From: Bacteroidetes bacterium 43-16
GTDB taxonomy: Bacteria; Bacteroidota; Bacteroidia; Chitinophagales; Chitinophagaceae
Direction of reading: 5' to 3'
Length of the DNA: 64,000 bases
Assembly: GCA_001897525.1 (NCBI GenBank)
Contig: MKTB01000009.1
Location: 1-64,000, forward strand
Position numbers and translations under genes: made by a program. This document shows, piece after piece, positions 639-63,778 of the stretch (position 1 is its first letter; every line of letters starts with the position of its first letter). The notes under the pieces are model-generated. The model had not been told where the DNA came from. It saw only the letters and a program-made list of their open reading frames with translations, and did not search any database.

Positions 639-3443
639 TTACAATTTAGTCATTTTATGGGTAATATGTACATTTTCCCCGGTGATCGTGATATAAAACC
701 GGCCTGCCGGCAATGCAGAGCAGTCCAGGTTAAAGGCATTAAGGCCGGCATGTAATAGTTGAGGTATACTGCGCAGCAGGCGACCATTCTGATCATATAT
801 TTGTATCTGCACAGGCCTGTTTTTGTTGCTGCTAATACCCAGGTGAGTACTGTGCTGCACCGGGTTGGGGTATAAGGTACAGGTTATGTCCCCGCTCTTG
901 CGGCCCTCTTTAATGCCGGTGGGCAGGCCATCTATTTTAAAGCGCGAGATAAAGGCATCATAATTAGCGCTATAAGGCTGCGTACCCATATAATAAGCCT
1001 GGTCGCAATAGGAATTGGGGATCATGCTGCCGGGAATGCAGTAGATATAAGGTGCATTGGTCGAATTGGTCTGGCCGGTGAGGTAGAGATAAGGATACTG
1101 TACACACAGCCCTGTGGGAAAGTCATGTTCGTAATCCATGGTATTGGGCGTGCTGCCGCCTCCGAAATAGGTAGACCAGGTCAATTGCTCATGGGCATCC
1201 AGGCTCATGATATAGCTGTCCCATTGAGTGGTGCCTCCTGCATTAGATGCATTCTGGGCCTGCAGGTAAGCCCCATTTGCCGCTGTTACCGAAAGGTTGA
1301 TGCCTGCTATATGGGTCGTGGTGTAGATCCGGTCCCCGTCCAGGACCAGGTTGGCAGCTCTAAAACTCCTGGAAAAATCGGTTTCCTGGGCGCTTGAGGT
1401 CGTATTGTTAAAGGCTAAAGGGGTACTCCAGAGCAGCCTTCGGTCCGGGGAGAATTTCATCAGGGTATTGGTGCTTGCAGGTGTGGAAGGTAATGCCTGG
1501 AAATAGGAATGGCCATTATTGTACAAGGGGGTTAAGCCCAGGCTGTTGGGCGCTGCACCCTGGGGCGCATACTGGCTGCTGATATTATATGTTCCGAGGC
1601 AGAGCAATTGCCCTTTACTGTTGAAGCTGATGTCCATCAAGCCCTCTACAGAAAAGCCTAAAAGCGTACTCCAGACCAGTTTCCGCTTATCGTTAAATGC
1701 AGCAATGAACATATTTTTATTGTAACTGTTATTGCTGTTCTGGAAAAAACTGCCGTCATTAGGGTTGGATAATGGAAAGGAGCAGGTGCTGTGGGCCGAG
1801 GCCGGTGAGGGTGATTCGTTCAGCCCGCCATTGTTATTCCAGGTTTGCCCGCCTATATATACTATGTCATCTTTGGTCGTTACCGTAACGATATTGTCCT
1901 TGCCGCTGCCGCCAAAGAGGGTGCTCCATACCAGGCTCATGTCCCTCAAGCGGAACTGGGCGATAAAACCATCTTCCCTGTCGACAGCACATTTCTGGTT
2001 TTTAAAATAAAAATTATTGTTTGGCCCGGAGTATAAGGGGAAAGAGCCATTGGTCTGCCCATTGGGGCTGTTGGAAAAATTATTGCTGCCCTTGGTATTG
2101 CCCACCAGGTAGAGGTATTGCTGTTGCTGATCGATGTGCAGATATTTAATGATGTCATCAGATGTGCCACCGAAATAGGTTTTATATTTTAATTTGCCTA
2201 AATTGTCGAAGGAGGCCAGCAGGCCATCAAATTTTGAATGGGGCATCGGGGTGCCGCCCTGCCCGGCATCTTTATCTTGATAAAATTGTGCGTATTGGGG
2301 TAATACAGTGCCCGGTATAAGATCATTAGAACAGGTAATCCCGGCTACCCATACTACCCCGGTATTGGCGCTGCTGCTACCGCCTGCATTGGAGGCTAAA
2401 GCGGCTACCTGGTCGAGCTTGCTGCCCCCGTAATAAGTGCCCCATTGCCGGGCCGTATTATCAAATTGAGAAATATACCAGTCATAATGGGTATTGCCTA
2501 CGGGCAAGGTTACGCCGTTTTGTGCGGCAAAATATCGGTTAGGGTCCCAGTGCGACATGGCATGGTATACCGTAGTGCCCTGCCCGCTGCAGATCCGCGC
2601 TTCACTTTGCAGAAAGTCGGCCCCGTAATATACACTCCAGTCCATATTCGCCACACCCAGGGGCTGGGGTGTTTCACTACCTATAGCAAGGACCAGCGTA
2701 TGAGCGGTATTGTAATTGGCGGTAGCCACAGTCACCGTGCCGCTTCCGTTATGATTCCATGCCGGCAGCCATCCCAGAACATTGGTGTTATTGGCATTGT
2801 CAATTTCATAGGCATATGCCTGGGCGAGGCTTAATTCCCAGTTGTTGAGGAACATTTTCAGGCTACCATTGGCCAGCAGTGCAATACTGTCCTGCCCCTG
2901 GAAGAGCAGAGCTATCTGGTCTGGGTCTCCTCCCGGCTTTACCACAAAATACATTTTCATCGCTACACTATTGCTGTACAGGTGCACATCAATGTCGGGG
3001 TAGGCATTCTCGTAGACGATACGGGCATAACCATTTACATCGGTTACCCCGTTGGGGCAATGGGGCAGGTAGTAGTTTAAATGGTCCTTTGCTTCTTCAT
3101 AGGGAATAAGCTGTGCGCAACTTATTTCTTTTTCACGATCACAGGCAAAGATCATATCTATCCGCAGAGCGGTATCTGGCGCATTAGCCTGCGCGGTGTC
3201 CCCAACCATGGTCCTGGTAAATGCAATACCCTCCTGCATCAGGAATGTTTTGGGAAAACCCTGTTCTGTGTAGTATAAAACATCATTACGCAGGTTACCG
3301 GCATTATCAATGATCTGTCCTTTGTTTTCATAATAGAAATTAGCGTTGGAAGGTGCTTGCGGGTTGGGTTCGGGTAAAGTCGATTGTGCGGTGCAGTAAT
3401 GTGCGGCTGCCAGTAAGAGCAGCAGGATGCAATTCTTTTTCAT
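639..3443 (-). CDS. Large secreted beta-propeller (SBBP-type) protein with type IX sorting domain
   Basis: This 934-residue protein starts with a clear signal peptide (Lys-Lys, then Leu/Ala-rich, cleavage near Cys-Thr-Ala-Gln). Residues about 35-250 contain the N-terminal NKGQ-type module that precedes SBBP propellers in Bacteroidota. At least five repeats follow, each with a pattern like F-x(n)-W-S-T-Y/L-F-G-G, as in WSTLFGG, KTYFGG and WSTYFGG. The last 80 residues, from LYPNP to the final KMTKL, look like a type A sorting domain of the type IX secretion system, so the protein is expected at the cell surface or outside. The ATG at 3443 is the natural start because the signal peptide begins there. 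The ligand and function are unknown. Confidence 0.85.
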   Translation of the reverse strand: MKKNCILLLLLAAAHYCTAQSTLPEPNPQAPSNANFYYENKGQIIDNAGNLRNDVLYYTEQGFPKTFLMQEGIAFTRTMVGDTAQANAPDTALRIDMIFACDREKEISCAQLIPYEEAKDHLNYYLPHCPNGVTDVNGYARIVYENAYPDIDVHLYSNSVAMKMYFVVKPGGDPDQIALLFQGQDSIALLANGSLKMFLNNWELSLAQAYAYEIDNANNTNVLGWLPAWNHNGSGTVTVATANYNTAHTLVLAIGSETPQPLGVANMDWSVYYGADFLQSEARICSGQGTTVYHAMSHWDPNRYFAAQNGVTLPVGNTHYDWYISQFDNTARQWGTYYGGSKLDQVAALASNAGGSSSANTGVVWVAGITCSNDLIPGTVLPQYAQFYQDKDAGQGGTPMPHSKFDGLLASFDNLGKLKYKTYFGGTSDDIIKYLHIDQQQQYLYLVGNTKGSNNFSNSPNGQTNGSFPLYSGPNNNFYFKNQKCAVDREDGFIAQFRLRDMSLVWSTLFGGSGKDNIVTVTTKDDIVYIGGQTWNNNGGLNESPSPASAHSTCSFPLSNPNDGSFFQNSNNSYNKNMFIAAFNDKRKLVWSTLLGFSVEGLMDISFNSKGQLLCLGTYNISSQYAPQGAAPNSLGLTPLYNNGHSYFQALPSTPASTNTLMKFSPDRRLLWSTPLAFNNTTSSAQETDFSRSFRAANLVLDGDRIYTTTHIAGINLSVTAANGAYLQAQNASNAGGTTQWDSYIMSLDAHEQLTWSTYFGGGSTPNTMDYEHDFPTGLCVQYPYLYLTGQTNSTNAPYIYCIPGSMIPNSYCDQAYYMGTQPYSANYDAFISRFKIDGLPTGIKEGRKSGDITCTLYPNPVQHSTHLGISSNKNRPVQIQIYDQNGRLLRSIPQLLHAGLNAFNLDCSALPAGRFYITITGENVHITHKMTKL

Positions 3444-34236: not shown

Positions 34237-36459
34237 CTACCTGATGAGTGTTACATCTCCTTTATAAGTAACTACTTCTTTATTGGGTAATTCTGCAACC
34301 ACGATGTACATATATACGCCTTGCTCTACAGGTTGGCCTTTAAGTGTACCGTCCCAGCCTTTCTGAGGATCGATGGTGTTGAACATCTCCTGACCCCAAC
34401 GGTTAAAGATCTGGAACTTGGTGAGTTTGATAAACTTATTGCCCGGGATCTTGAACTCATCATTTTTACCATCACCATTTGGTGTAAAGGCATTCGGCAT
34501 GATTGGTTTTTCAGGGAAAATAACATTGATCGCGATGGATGCGGTGTCTTTACAACCAAATCTATCGGTACCTACTACTTTATAAGTGGTATTTTCATGC
34601 GCTTTGATTGTATTGTCCTGGATGAAGGGATCTACAAACAGGTGGCTGGGCTCCCAGGTATAGAATTGGAAGTTTCCGGCTACTTTAAAATAGATCGTTT
34701 CATCATATTTGTAAGTGCTGCCTGATGGAGGTAATACCGTGGTGAATTTTTCAGGTAATACTGCAGTCAGGGTTAAATTTTTCTCACTGGAACAGCCTGC
34801 AACCGGGGTGGTTACCTTAAGGGTGTAATTATATACGCCCGGAGGAGCATAAAAGAAATTGGTACCGATGTTACCGGCTCTTAATCCTGTAGCCGGAGTC
34901 CAGCTATAGAGGTAGTTTAAAGAGTCGGGGCTGATGCTCACCGGTAAAGGCACAGAGTCAGACAGGCAGATGGTTGTATCTGTAGACATATGGATGATAG
35001 GGATCTGCTCTACGGTAGCCAGGTAGCGCCTGTATGCCGGCGGACAGGTTGCCGGGGCATTAGGTTGTGTCACTTTAAGGGTAAAGATTCTGGAAGTCAG
35101 CATATTGGGGGTGATGGTGAGGTTACCTGTATTATAAACTACAGGGTCCCAGCTGAAATCATTGCCCGGAGCGACTTCTCCCTGGATGGTAATGGTAGTG
35201 TTAGGGCAGACGGTGGTCTCCGGCGTAGCAATATTTGCATAAAGAGAATCGTAGATATAAACGGTATCTCTTTGAATAATAGGAATAATTGCCGCATTTA
35301 CTAATACAGAATCCGGGTGCTTAACGCCGATCACTACATATTTTTCACCAGAATAAGGGCCTAAAAGACCTTTTACCTGGATGGTACCGGTAGACTGGCC
35401 CGGAGGAATCGGTAGTGTATTAGGTATGGTTTCATAGTGAACGCCCGGAATTGCGGTTCCCCCGATCTCTAAATGAAAACTGAAAGGCAACATGGTATCA
35501 CAATCTGTTCTTTTGTATTTGATCTCGGCAGGGGTACAGCCTCTTACAGTATGCAGTTTGCTGGTGTTGGCACCCAGGCCGGAAGTGGGTTGCGTAGCTA
35601 CTGCAGTACTGGTTAAGCTACCGGCTTTAAAGAAAATGCCGGAATCGTAGATCCCATCGGAAACGTTGGCAATAGCCAGTTTTAAACGGTAAGTTTCGCA
35701 GGGAATAACTTTAGCTTCAGCAGTCAGCACAGTGGTGAAGCCATCGAATACAACTGTTTGTCCCGTAACATTATCTACATAATACTGGGCAAAAGGAGCG
35801 TTAGCATCGATGCTGGTACAATTGGAAAGTGTACCATAAATACCCGGACCATTGGCAATGGTATTGATCATGATTGGTGTATTGGTTCCCGGTACTAATG
35901 CCACATTTCTTTTGGTAGGCATAGGTGTATTGCTGACAATACCTGGCCCTGAAATTAATAAGGCGAACACATCATTAACTGTAGCACAGGCATACTCAGG
36001 ATATTCTTCTGAACCAAAAACATAATTGAACTTAACCGTATCTCCTTTAGGGATAAAGTCAAATTCTAATACACAGGCATCGTAGGTGCTGGCCATACCA
36101 TAGTTGGCGGATATGGCGTTCAGATCTGCATCGCCCGGAGTATTGGTGATGGTGGTCATCTGTAAATTTGCAGGAGAACCAATACCATATACACCCGAAG
36201 CATTATCAATTCTCCCGGTACAGAGTACGATACCGCTATCAATCCCTAAATTGCTGGGACCGGAAAACTTTCCGCTACCATTATCATTACAGATAAGGGT
36301 AGCATTGGAGGTAGATACTCCGGGCCCGACCAGGATATCCACTAATTGCTGGGCTGCAAGATTTGGTGTGCCTACAAGCTGTGCATCAACCTGGGTTGAG
36401 CCTAATAGCAGGAAACAAAAACTCTTAATCAGTGCTTTTTGTAAAAATTTAAATTTCAT
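34237..36459 (-). CDS. Large surface protein: choice-of-anchor L domain and gliding-type C-terminal domain
   Basis: A 740-residue secreted protein with a signal peptide (cleavage near VDAQ). Residues about 30-290 form a choice-of-anchor L module with FNYVFGSEEYPEYA, a very typical signature. A middle region of Ig-like beta repeats follows, and residues about 650-740 are the gliding-motility-associated C-terminal domain (PNAFTPNGDGKNDEF, FNRWGQEMF, GVYMYIV), a sorting signal for type IX secretion of the CHU_C type. It probably acts outside the outer membrane. It has its own promoter (36501-36531) and terminator (34181). Confidence 0.9.
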   Translation of the reverse strand: MKFKFLQKALIKSFCFLLLGSTQVDAQLVGTPNLAAQQLVDILVGPGVSTSNATLICNDNGSGKFSGPSNLGIDSGIVLCTGRIDNASGVYGIGSPANLQMTTITNTPGDADLNAISANYGMASTYDACVLEFDFIPKGDTVKFNYVFGSEEYPEYACATVNDVFALLISGPGIVSNTPMPTKRNVALVPGTNTPIMINTIANGPGIYGTLSNCTSIDANAPFAQYYVDNVTGQTVVFDGFTTVLTAEAKVIPCETYRLKLAIANVSDGIYDSGIFFKAGSLTSTAVATQPTSGLGANTSKLHTVRGCTPAEIKYKRTDCDTMLPFSFHLEIGGTAIPGVHYETIPNTLPIPPGQSTGTIQVKGLLGPYSGEKYVVIGVKHPDSVLVNAAIIPIIQRDTVYIYDSLYANIATPETTVCPNTTITIQGEVAPGNDFSWDPVVYNTGNLTITPNMLTSRIFTLKVTQPNAPATCPPAYRRYLATVEQIPIIHMSTDTTICLSDSVPLPVSISPDSLNYLYSWTPATGLRAGNIGTNFFYAPPGVYNYTLKVTTPVAGCSSEKNLTLTAVLPEKFTTVLPPSGSTYKYDETIYFKVAGNFQFYTWEPSHLFVDPFIQDNTIKAHENTTYKVVGTDRFGCKDTASIAINVIFPEKPIMPNAFTPNGDGKNDEFKIPGNKFIKLTKFQIFNRWGQEMFNTIDPQKGWDGTLKGQPVEQGVYMYIVVAELPNKEVVTYKGDVTLIR

Positions 36460-61535: not shown

Positions 61536-62609
61536 TTAGATCAGTACACTTTGTTTTACTTTTAATAACCAGTTCTGTTTATCTTCTATTCTTCCGTAGC
61601 GGATATCGTCCAGTTGTGTTTTGATCTTATTCGCAATAGTATATTCAGTAGTTGGTTTTAAGGTTAATTTCTCCTCGTTGTAAGTCAGATCCTGGATAAA
61701 GGACATTGAAGCTGCAGTTCCTGTACCGAAGGCTTCTTCCAGTTTGCCTGCTTTGTGTGCCTCTACCAGTTCATCAATGCTGATCGGGCGCTCTTCTACC
61801 GGAACACCGTTTTCTTTCAGCAGTGCGATCACGCTGTCACGGGTTACCCCTGCAAGGATCGTACCTGCATTCAGGTCCGGAGTAACGGCTTTACCGTCGA
61901 TGATGAAGAAAACATTCATCGTACCGATTTCCTGAACATATTTGTGCTCAAATGCATCTGTCCAAAGGATCTGGTCATAGCCCATTTTCCTTACTTCAGC
62001 AGTAGGGTACATAGAAGCGCCATAGTTACCGGCAGCTTTAGTGAAACCGATACCACCTTGTACTGCTCTTACAAAACTGCTCTGTACATAGATACTTACC
62101 GGCTTGTTGTAGTAAGGACCAGCAGGGCTGTTGATGATCATAAATTTGTAGGTAAATGAACTTCTTACCCCTAAGAATTCATCCGTTGCAAACATGAACG
62201 GGCGAATGTACAATGAGGTGTCTGCTTCATTAGGGATCCATGCGTCATCAATATTGATCAGTTCACGCATACCATCGAGGAAGATCTCAGAGGATATTTC
62301 AGGCATGCCCAGGCGTTGCGCAGACTTGTTGAATCTTTCCCAGTTTTTCTCAGGACGAAAAATAGCAGAGCCTCCGTTAGGTTGACGATATGCTTTTACT
62401 CCTTCAAAAATAGATTGCCCGTAATGCAATGCAGATAAAGAAGGACAGATACTGATATTACCAAAAGGTACGATCTCGGGAGCACCCCATTGACCGTCTT
62501 TGTAATCACAAACCAACATATGATCCGCATACTCCTGCCCAAACACTATCTCATCTCTTTTTAATTCATGCACGCGGCTGTTGTCTGTTCTTGAAATTTT
62601 AATCTCCAT
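61536..62609 (-). CDS. ilvE: Branched-chain amino acid aminotransferase
   Basis: A 357-residue PLP enzyme of fold type IV. The catalytic lysine is K191 in TKAAGNYGAS, and LNAGTILAGVTRDS is the conserved substrate-binding loop. It performs the last step of Val, Leu and Ile synthesis or the first of their breakdown. The length and motifs fit the eukaryote-like class (about 350 residues) rather than E. coli IlvE (about 310). It is monocistronic. Confidence 0.94.
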   Translation of the reverse strand: MEIKISRTDNSRVHELKRDEIVFGQEYADHMLVCDYKDGQWGAPEIVPFGNISICPSLSALHYGQSIFEGVKAYRQPNGGSAIFRPEKNWERFNKSAQRLGMPEISSEIFLDGMRELINIDDAWIPNEADTSLYIRPFMFATDEFLGVRSSFTYKFMIINSPAGPYYNKPVSIYVQSSFVRAVQGGIGFTKAAGNYGASMYPTAEVRKMGYDQILWTDAFEHKYVQEIGTMNVFFIIDGKAVTPDLNAGTILAGVTRDSVIALLKENGVPVEERPISIDELVEAHKAGKLEEAFGTGTAASMSFIQDLTYNEEKLTLKPTTEYTIANKIKTQLDDIRYGRIEDKQNWLLKVKQSVLI

Positions 62610-62749
62610 ATTAATCTTGTTTTATTTATGCCAGGGCATAACAGTTTGTTAATAAGTCGCGGCAAAGCTAAGGTTTTTAGCGCGAAAACGAAAAAAGGGA
62701 TGTTATCTATTTGATAAAATTTACCTTTGCCTCACAATACGGACAATAA

Positions 62750-63190
62750 ATGGAGACACAATTCCCTTTTAATTTATTCGAGCATAATGATATAATACAA
62801 GTATCTGATAATCAGAAGATTTCGGCTAATATTTGCCAGGGAAAACGTATCCTTGCATTAGTGCTTCCTTATCATGATATACAGGAGGTGAGCCAGCAAT
62901 TATTTAAGATATTTTCTGCCTGTAATATTGCCCCGGAACAGGTCCTGGTGAGCAATCAGCTTATGGATTGGGGCCAGATAGAGCAGCAGGAAGACCTGAA
63001 AGAGGTCTTTTTATTTGGCATTAAACCCGTTTCTATCGGGATTCATTATAACTTATTCCCTTATCGTTTTCTGGGCCTTGGCGAGAAAAAAGTGCTTTTA
63101 GCCGATCCCATAGACCTGATCTTAAGCCAGGGCCAGTTGAAGGCAGACTTCTGGCATAAAACACTGAAACCTTATTTTATTGGTGCATAA
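62750..63190 (+). CDS. Small protein, possible distant DNA polymerase III psi subunit
   Basis: A 146-residue protein with no signal peptide or membrane segment. It reads as alternating strands and helices: ILALVLPYHD, a helix ending in CNIAPEQVLVSNQ, EVFLFGIKPVSIG, KVLLADPIDLIL and a last helix DFWHKTLKPYF. This order and spacing recalls psi (HolD), where a similar pattern ends in SPALxxL...LWQQI. The similarity is by eye only. A TACCTTTG -7 element lies at 62722-62729. It is followed by rdgB after 12 bp, so the two are probably cotranscribed. Confidence 0.5.
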   Translation: METQFPFNLFEHNDIIQVSDNQKISANICQGKRILALVLPYHDIQEVSQQLFKIFSACNIAPEQVLVSNQLMDWGQIEQQEDLKEVFLFGIKPVSIGIHYNLFPYRFLGLGEKKVLLADPIDLILSQGQLKADFWHKTLKPYFIGA

Positions 63191-63202
63191 AAATACTTAA
63201 AC

Positions 63203-63778
63203 ATGGATATGATACTGGCCTCAAATAATGCAGGTAAGATTAAAGAAATAAATGAGTTGCTGGAGGGAAGATATAAGATCATTTCATTGAAAGAAGCGGG
63301 TATCGAAGAAGAGATCCCCGAGCCCTTTTTCACCTTTGAAGAGAATGCGCTGGCAAAAGCAAAATATGCCTATGATAGAACGGGGATTGTCACCTTTGCA
63401 GAAGACAGCGGGCTGGTAGTGCCTGCTTTAAATGGTGAGCCGGGAGTCTTCAGCGCGCGCTATGCCGGTGAACCCAAGAGTGACCTGGCCAACACAGAAA
63501 AGCTTTTAAAAGAGTTGGAAGGGCATACCGACCGGGCTGCCTATTACACAACTATAATTTGCCTGGCAGGGCTGGGGGGGCTGCACTACTTCTCCGGTAA
63601 ATGTGAGGGGCATATTGCCACGGAAATGCGCGGTGAGGGCGGTTTTGGTTATGACCCGGTATTTATACCTGCGGGTTATGATCAGACATTCGGTGAATTA
63701 CCCGCTGCTGTAAAATCGGCAGTGAGCCACAGGGCAAAAGCCATGAAAGATTTTATCGCTTTCCTGGCCCAATTATAA
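63203..63778 (+). CDS. rdgB: Non-canonical purine NTP pyrophosphatase (RdgB/HAM1)
   Basis: A 191-residue enzyme that removes dITP, XTP and similar nucleotides from the pool. The SNNAGKIKE start, FAEDSGLVV metal-binding region, GEGGFGYDPVF and SHRAKA C-terminal motif are all present. It complements endonuclease V, encoded elsewhere in the window, which repairs inosine already in DNA. It follows the psi-like gene by 12 bp. Confidence 0.95.
   Translation: MDMILASNNAGKIKEINELLEGRYKIISLKEAGIEEEIPEPFFTFEENALAKAKYAYDRTGIVTFAEDSGLVVPALNGEPGVFSARYAGEPKSDLANTEKLLKELEGHTDRAAYYTTIICLAGLGGLHYFSGKCEGHIATEMRGEGGFGYDPVFIPAGYDQTFGELPAAVKSAVSHRAKAMKDFIAFLAQL

Follow-up and report, generated by a model that had tools for sequence, protein, structure and literature searches.

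Results

A conserved gene between ilvE and rdgB

Does a small open reading frame of Bacteroidetes bacterium 43-16 encode a relative of psi (HolD), the DNA polymerase III subunit, and what would such a protein do? The gene starts at position 62750 of the window, by which we mean the whole stretch of 64,000 nucleotides that was analysed. Its surroundings are as follows.

61536..62609, minus strand: ilvE-type aminotransferase (PF01063), upstream of and divergent from the psi-like gene; conserved neighbour
62722..62729, plus strand: TACCTTTG, just before the start codon of the psi-like gene; presumably a match to the TAnnTTTG -7 promoter element of Bacteroidota
62750..63190, plus strand: putative psi-superfamily (HolD-like) gene, ATG at 62750, 146 amino acids, stop codon included
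63203..63778, plus strand: rdgB/Ham1 (PF01725), 12 bp 3' of the psi-like gene; conserved neighbour

The psi-like gene and rdgB/Ham1 are probably part of one operon. Elsewhere in the window, the proteins at 642-3443 and 34240-36459 (both minus strand) carry sorting domains of type IX secretion, of types A and B, in keeping with a Bacteroidota origin.

The sequence-only reading had treated the 146-residue frame as a gene, and its distribution and stable neighbours show that it is a real one. Searched with the window protein as a single sequence, 34 of 195 genomes from its own family contained relatives, and none of the 34 matches listed had an internal stop. Of 247 class genomes, 42 were matched by a first family profile and 63 by a widened one (E<=0.01), the latter including 62 of the 216 genomes of good quality; the weakest few of these 63, such as a match that contains an internal stop, may be due to chance. 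Roughly one in four of the class genomes sampled has the gene, in a stable neighbourhood, and three quarters of the sampled class had no match to the family profile. In a phylum-wide profile search 47 of 392 genomes were matched, two of them from another class (G725 and G805, the match in G725 resembling uracil-DNA-glycosylase, UDG), and the large family f55 gave no match among the genomes listed.

Neighbours were counted at 84 non-redundant loci out of 131, redundancy being judged on the last 100 residues; these loci were picked by match and not at random, and include the UDG-like locus L221 described below. Flanks of at least 900 bp were available upstream at all 84 and downstream at 83. An ilvE-type cluster lay upstream and divergent at 62 of the 84 loci, and at 48 the gene was followed, in the same orientation, by an rdgB cluster. 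At 15 of the 84 a DEAD-type helicase, which we read as recQ, stood downstream on the same strand where others have rdgB (for example L009:1922-3352, plus strand, and L018:1764-3362, plus strand). The conserved order of neighbours across the 84 loci argues for vertical inheritance of the psi-like gene. Three scans of viral contigs showed no relative, nor did one phage and one plasmid search with L034; a phage search with L221 returned one weak record.

Matches to curated psi models

Taken alone, the window protein left the Pfam psi family (DNA_III_psi, PF03603) silent at E<=10, and zero NCBIfam models matched it at the same threshold. Its weak Pfam match to the Soc capsid protein (PF16855, E 0.24) concerned this one member only and was rejected. 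When 52 family members were scanned one by one against Pfam, DNA_III_psi matched 26 of them and every other family at most one. With 65 members the count rose to 31, with a best E of 9.3e-8, the other families matching one member each among the 25 of 31 families listed in order of members matched. The only NCBIfam models to match more than one of the 65 members were three psi models (5, 2 and 2 members), and two more psi models matched one member each; the model with the most matches (5 of 65) is NF004764, which we take to be the Pseudomonas-type psi model. A better match to another family was thus not found, psi being the sole recurrent Pfam or NCBIfam match among members.

A few relatives scored above the PF03603 gathering score of 22.2 as translated open reading frames, namely L211 (32.8 bits), L212 (25.7) and L204 (24.2), the last of which belongs to a genome in the same family as the window; L210 fell just short, at 21.6 bits. 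In a direct genome search the cut-off was exceeded in 3 of the 74 genomes that bear the gene; G289, above it in that search, came just under it (21.6) as a translated frame. Public protein databases may already have labelled as psi, by automatic annotation, those few members that exceed the Pfam cut-off. At E<=10, PF03603 found 44 places in 38 of the 74 genomes. The psi-like gene accounted for 28 of the 44, including all ten top places, and the 16 others lay away from it, among them both of the weak places found in the window's own genome. PF03603 is itself of limited sensitivity: in the order to which a Kluyvera genome (G437) belongs it matches no more than 65 of 119 genomes, and in the class of that genome 7 of 143. 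Because it misses so many genomes there, its miss of the window protein says little.

Profile comparison with gammaproteobacterial HolD

The HolD set was drawn from E. coli K-12 and gammaproteobacterial genomes, 35 sequences being aligned. Its rows L142 and L149-L177 are the best 30 places of one search, to which L143-L148 were added, and from which L157 and L160 were omitted (wrong frames); alignment A6 draws 28 rows from the 81 HolD sequences available. The family alignment A2 leaves out L001, L032 and L033 (repeat genomes), L003, L008, L022 and L025 (near other rows), and L045 and L056 (uncertain frame or start). Alignment A5 further omits L030, L044, L047 and L053, and takes in 7 of 30 loci from the phylum search and 10 of 12 from another set (not L220 or L221).

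The remote homology to psi that had been guessed from the appearance of the protein was borne out by profile-profile comparison, in agreement with the curated models. Aligned with hhalign, the 52-member family and the 35-member HolD alignment gave a probability of 97.96 over 96 columns, with an E-value of 2.8e-13 that, like all those from hhalign here, refers to one comparison and not to a database search. The result held with the 31 core HolD rows (97.37, E 1.5e-11). It also held when the psi-like side was cut down to the window's own family (26 rows; 96.89, E 1.7e-10) or to 31 rows lying outside it (97.36). Column-shuffled HolD controls, 100 for each of two family sets, reached maxima of 0.78% and 1.43%, reversed sequences 0.33% and 0.18%, and eight decoy families at most 1.46%; the decoys are clusters of neighbouring open reading frames, some of which may be antisense shadows. 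The probability decreased to 70% with three members of the genus, and to only 15% with the window protein alone, the next of the 295 window frames being at 8%. The tie of the window protein to psi, as read from sequence, passes through its family and not through the single sequence.

An HMM built from HolD only ranked the window frame first of 295, at E 0.027 against 0.66 for the next frame. The HMM from the 31 rows outside the window's family also placed it at the top of the 295, at E 1.2e-14 (next 2.1). At 42 loci selected because the gene is there, which comprise 733 open reading frames, the HolD HMM matched the psi-like gene in all 42 cases with E<=1. The top 39 frames were all psi-like genes, and the three remaining copies (E 0.28-0.49) ranked below two unrelated frames (0.13 and 0.20). 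In the reverse direction, the psi-like family profile had zero matches in four enterobacterial genomes, and PDB profile searches with the family left the E. coli psi chains unmatched at E<=10.

Parts of the protein, and chance likeness

Three parts of the protein are considered.

62750..62839, plus strand: N-terminal segment, residues 1-30, at the position of psi's clamp-loader-binding peptide
62840..63175, plus strand: core domain aligning with gammaproteobacterial HolD, about residues 31-142 (hhalign from residue 29 or 32 to 137 or 141)
63131..63175, plus strand: C-terminal conserved element GQLKADFWHKTLKPY, residues 128-142, aligned with ARAALWQQI of E. coli psi

The C-terminal Leu/Trp element, already pointed out in the sequence-only reading, turned out to be the best-conserved part of the protein, with W135 invariant and K131 at 90% or more in the 65-row alignment. 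At the other end, comparison of the N-terminal segments with the psi peptide that enters the DnaX collar showed no profile similarity (0.07% and 0.09%, with 4 of the 65 rows omitted); as the segments are short, this negative result weighs little. A regular-expression motif for this region matched 42 of 65 rows, the pattern being too loose to be informative. Many relatives of the window protein carry long N-terminal extensions. AlphaFold2 models had a mean pLDDT of 40.4 from the single sequence and of 48.7 from the window protein with HolD rows (circular by design), both too low to read a fold or to bear out the strand-helix order given in the sequence-only reading.

Part of these observations could also come from a conserved alpha/beta protein that is unrelated to psi and mimics it by chance in the C-terminal K-x-x-L-W helix. 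The single window protein has no significant Pfam or NCBIfam match, conservation is strongest in precisely this helix, and neither structure model lends support from the fold. Against this, the HolD match persisted at 87% (E 3.6e-6) when the C-terminal helix was removed, it stood above the shuffled, reversed and decoy controls, and the independently built psi models of Pfam and NCBIfam concur. We consider chance likeness very improbable, and the core domain almost certainly homologous to psi.

Search for chi

A psi in this phylum had been hoped to link the clamp loader to chi and SSB. This hope was not supported, as a chi gene (HolC, PF04364) was detected in none of the 216 good-quality class genomes, the positive controls E. 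coli and Caulobacter being matched, and PF04364 exceeded its cut-off in none of the 74 genomes bearing the psi-like gene. Its sole match in the 247 class genomes (L178/L179, G327:C58) consists of two adjoining pieces in a 69%-complete genome, and could be contamination or a broken gene. At E<=10, 26 scattered weak places were found in 22 of the 74 gene-bearing genomes. The idea that these represent a diverged chi was rejected, no consistent chi-like family being seen among the central frames extracted from nine of the 26 places; scans of two of these identified L288 as a DUF4011/AAA_11 protein, which L281, L284 and L291 resemble by size and eye only, and L298 as a histidine kinase. A chi as diverged as the psi-like protein could escape detection. 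Since chi was not found, the psi-like protein probably works with something other than chi.

A possible link to uracil-DNA-glycosylases

The failure to detect chi in the 216 genomes also counts in favour of another reading, in which the protein shares psi's ancestry through the UDG fold and does another job instead of serving the clamp loader; it might, for example, be a UDG relative that has lost catalysis and acts in DNA repair beside rdgB or a helicase. The rdgB and DEAD-type helicase neighbours fit DNA or nucleotide maintenance, and the UDG superfamily profile PF03167 weakly matched one relative (1 of 65 members, E 0.019). L221 (1498-2217, minus strand) comes from another class of the phylum. 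This UDG-like protein scores 24.5 bits with PF03167 (cut-off 24.3) and matches the Thermus UDG 1ui0, which we take to be of UDG family 4, at E 2.4e-7; it also matches the psi-like family, at E 2.8e-5 and with an hhalign probability of 95%. Two UDG clusters compared directly with the psi-like family gave at most 0.67% in hhalign, against 98% for HolD, and were rejected as relatives; they comprised 28 sequences from 30 picks, of the UNG type and another type, and one pick, L266, looks like a wrong-frame open reading frame. UDG active-site motifs were not seen by eye in the family. We regard a role outside the clamp loader as unlikely. Because L221 matches both the UDG superfamily and the psi-like family, it hints that psi descended from a UDG-fold protein and may be a bridge between psi and UDG family 4, which we take as a lead only.

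Discussion

The reading that we prefer is that this gene encodes a protein of the psi (HolD) superfamily, quite likely a chi-less accessory subunit of the clamp loader that would bind the DnaX complex. The clamp-loader role, considered for itself, is reasonably probable. The protein is classed as a psi-superfamily homologue rather than as a proven psi subunit because its chi partner was undetected and similarity to the collar peptide was not seen.

By this reading the psi-like protein would bind the DnaX (tau/gamma) complex and steady or stimulate clamp loading. As no chi gene is detectable, the face with which E. coli psi binds chi would here be free, or taken by another partner, perhaps SSB or DNA directly. 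Direct contact with nucleic acid is possible by analogy, because the N-terminus of Pseudomonas psi binds ssDNA (PMC3197488), and many relatives of the window protein have long N-terminal extensions.

More tentatively, psi could be an ancient and widespread component of the clamp loader, derived from the UDG fold and older than its pairing with chi. In a good part of the class a chi-less psi would then connect the loader with SSB, with DNA or with some unknown partner, and the psi-chi pair of gamma-proteobacteria would have come later; we hold this broader scenario to be doubtful, if worth stating. If the clamp-loader reading is true, an unannotated gene family gains a role in replication, the clamp-loader function of psi becomes separable from its role as a tether for chi, and the composition of the clamp loader in the phylum becomes directly testable.

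How does this family compare with known psi proteins? The statements from the literature that follow rest on extracts of the papers cited. A review from 2012 assigns psi to gamma-proteobacteria (PMC3290774; one passage ends after "gamma"), and a mention of psi or HolD in Bacteroidota was not found in the extracts of open-licence literature, which is no proof of absence. In a screen for proteins that gut taxa lack, or have only in a weakly similar form, HolD is treated as a target in E. coli (PMC8229198). The N-terminus of E. coli psi inserts into the clamp-loader collar, where it contacts the three tau/gamma subunits; it strengthens the complex and increases its affinity for DNA about 20-fold, and chi binds SSB (PMC11253446, PMC3290774). 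In Pseudomonas, loss of HolD is reported to lead to slow growth and SOS induction (PMC8879598). What the present family conserves is the globular core.

Compared with HolD (PF03603, TIGR00664, NF004764; E. coli structures 1EM8/3SXU), the psi-like family is alike in a core of 91-98 columns, in the C-terminal K/R-x-x-L-W helix and in its similar length, whereas identity is only about 12-14% and psi's N-terminal clamp-loader peptide is not recognisable. The gene context differs too, the psi-like gene lying beside ilvE and rdgB or a helicase, and E. coli holD beside rimI. The likeness to UDG family 4 (Thermus 1ui0) passes through the bridging sequence L221, the UDG clusters tested being unmatched. 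As to the partner, chi went undetected for the psi-like family in 216 of 216 good class genomes, whereas Pseudomonas psi pairs with chi (PMC3197488). In its divergence, on the other hand, the psi of Pseudomonas resembles the present family, being likewise too far diverged for ordinary homology search (PMC8879598).
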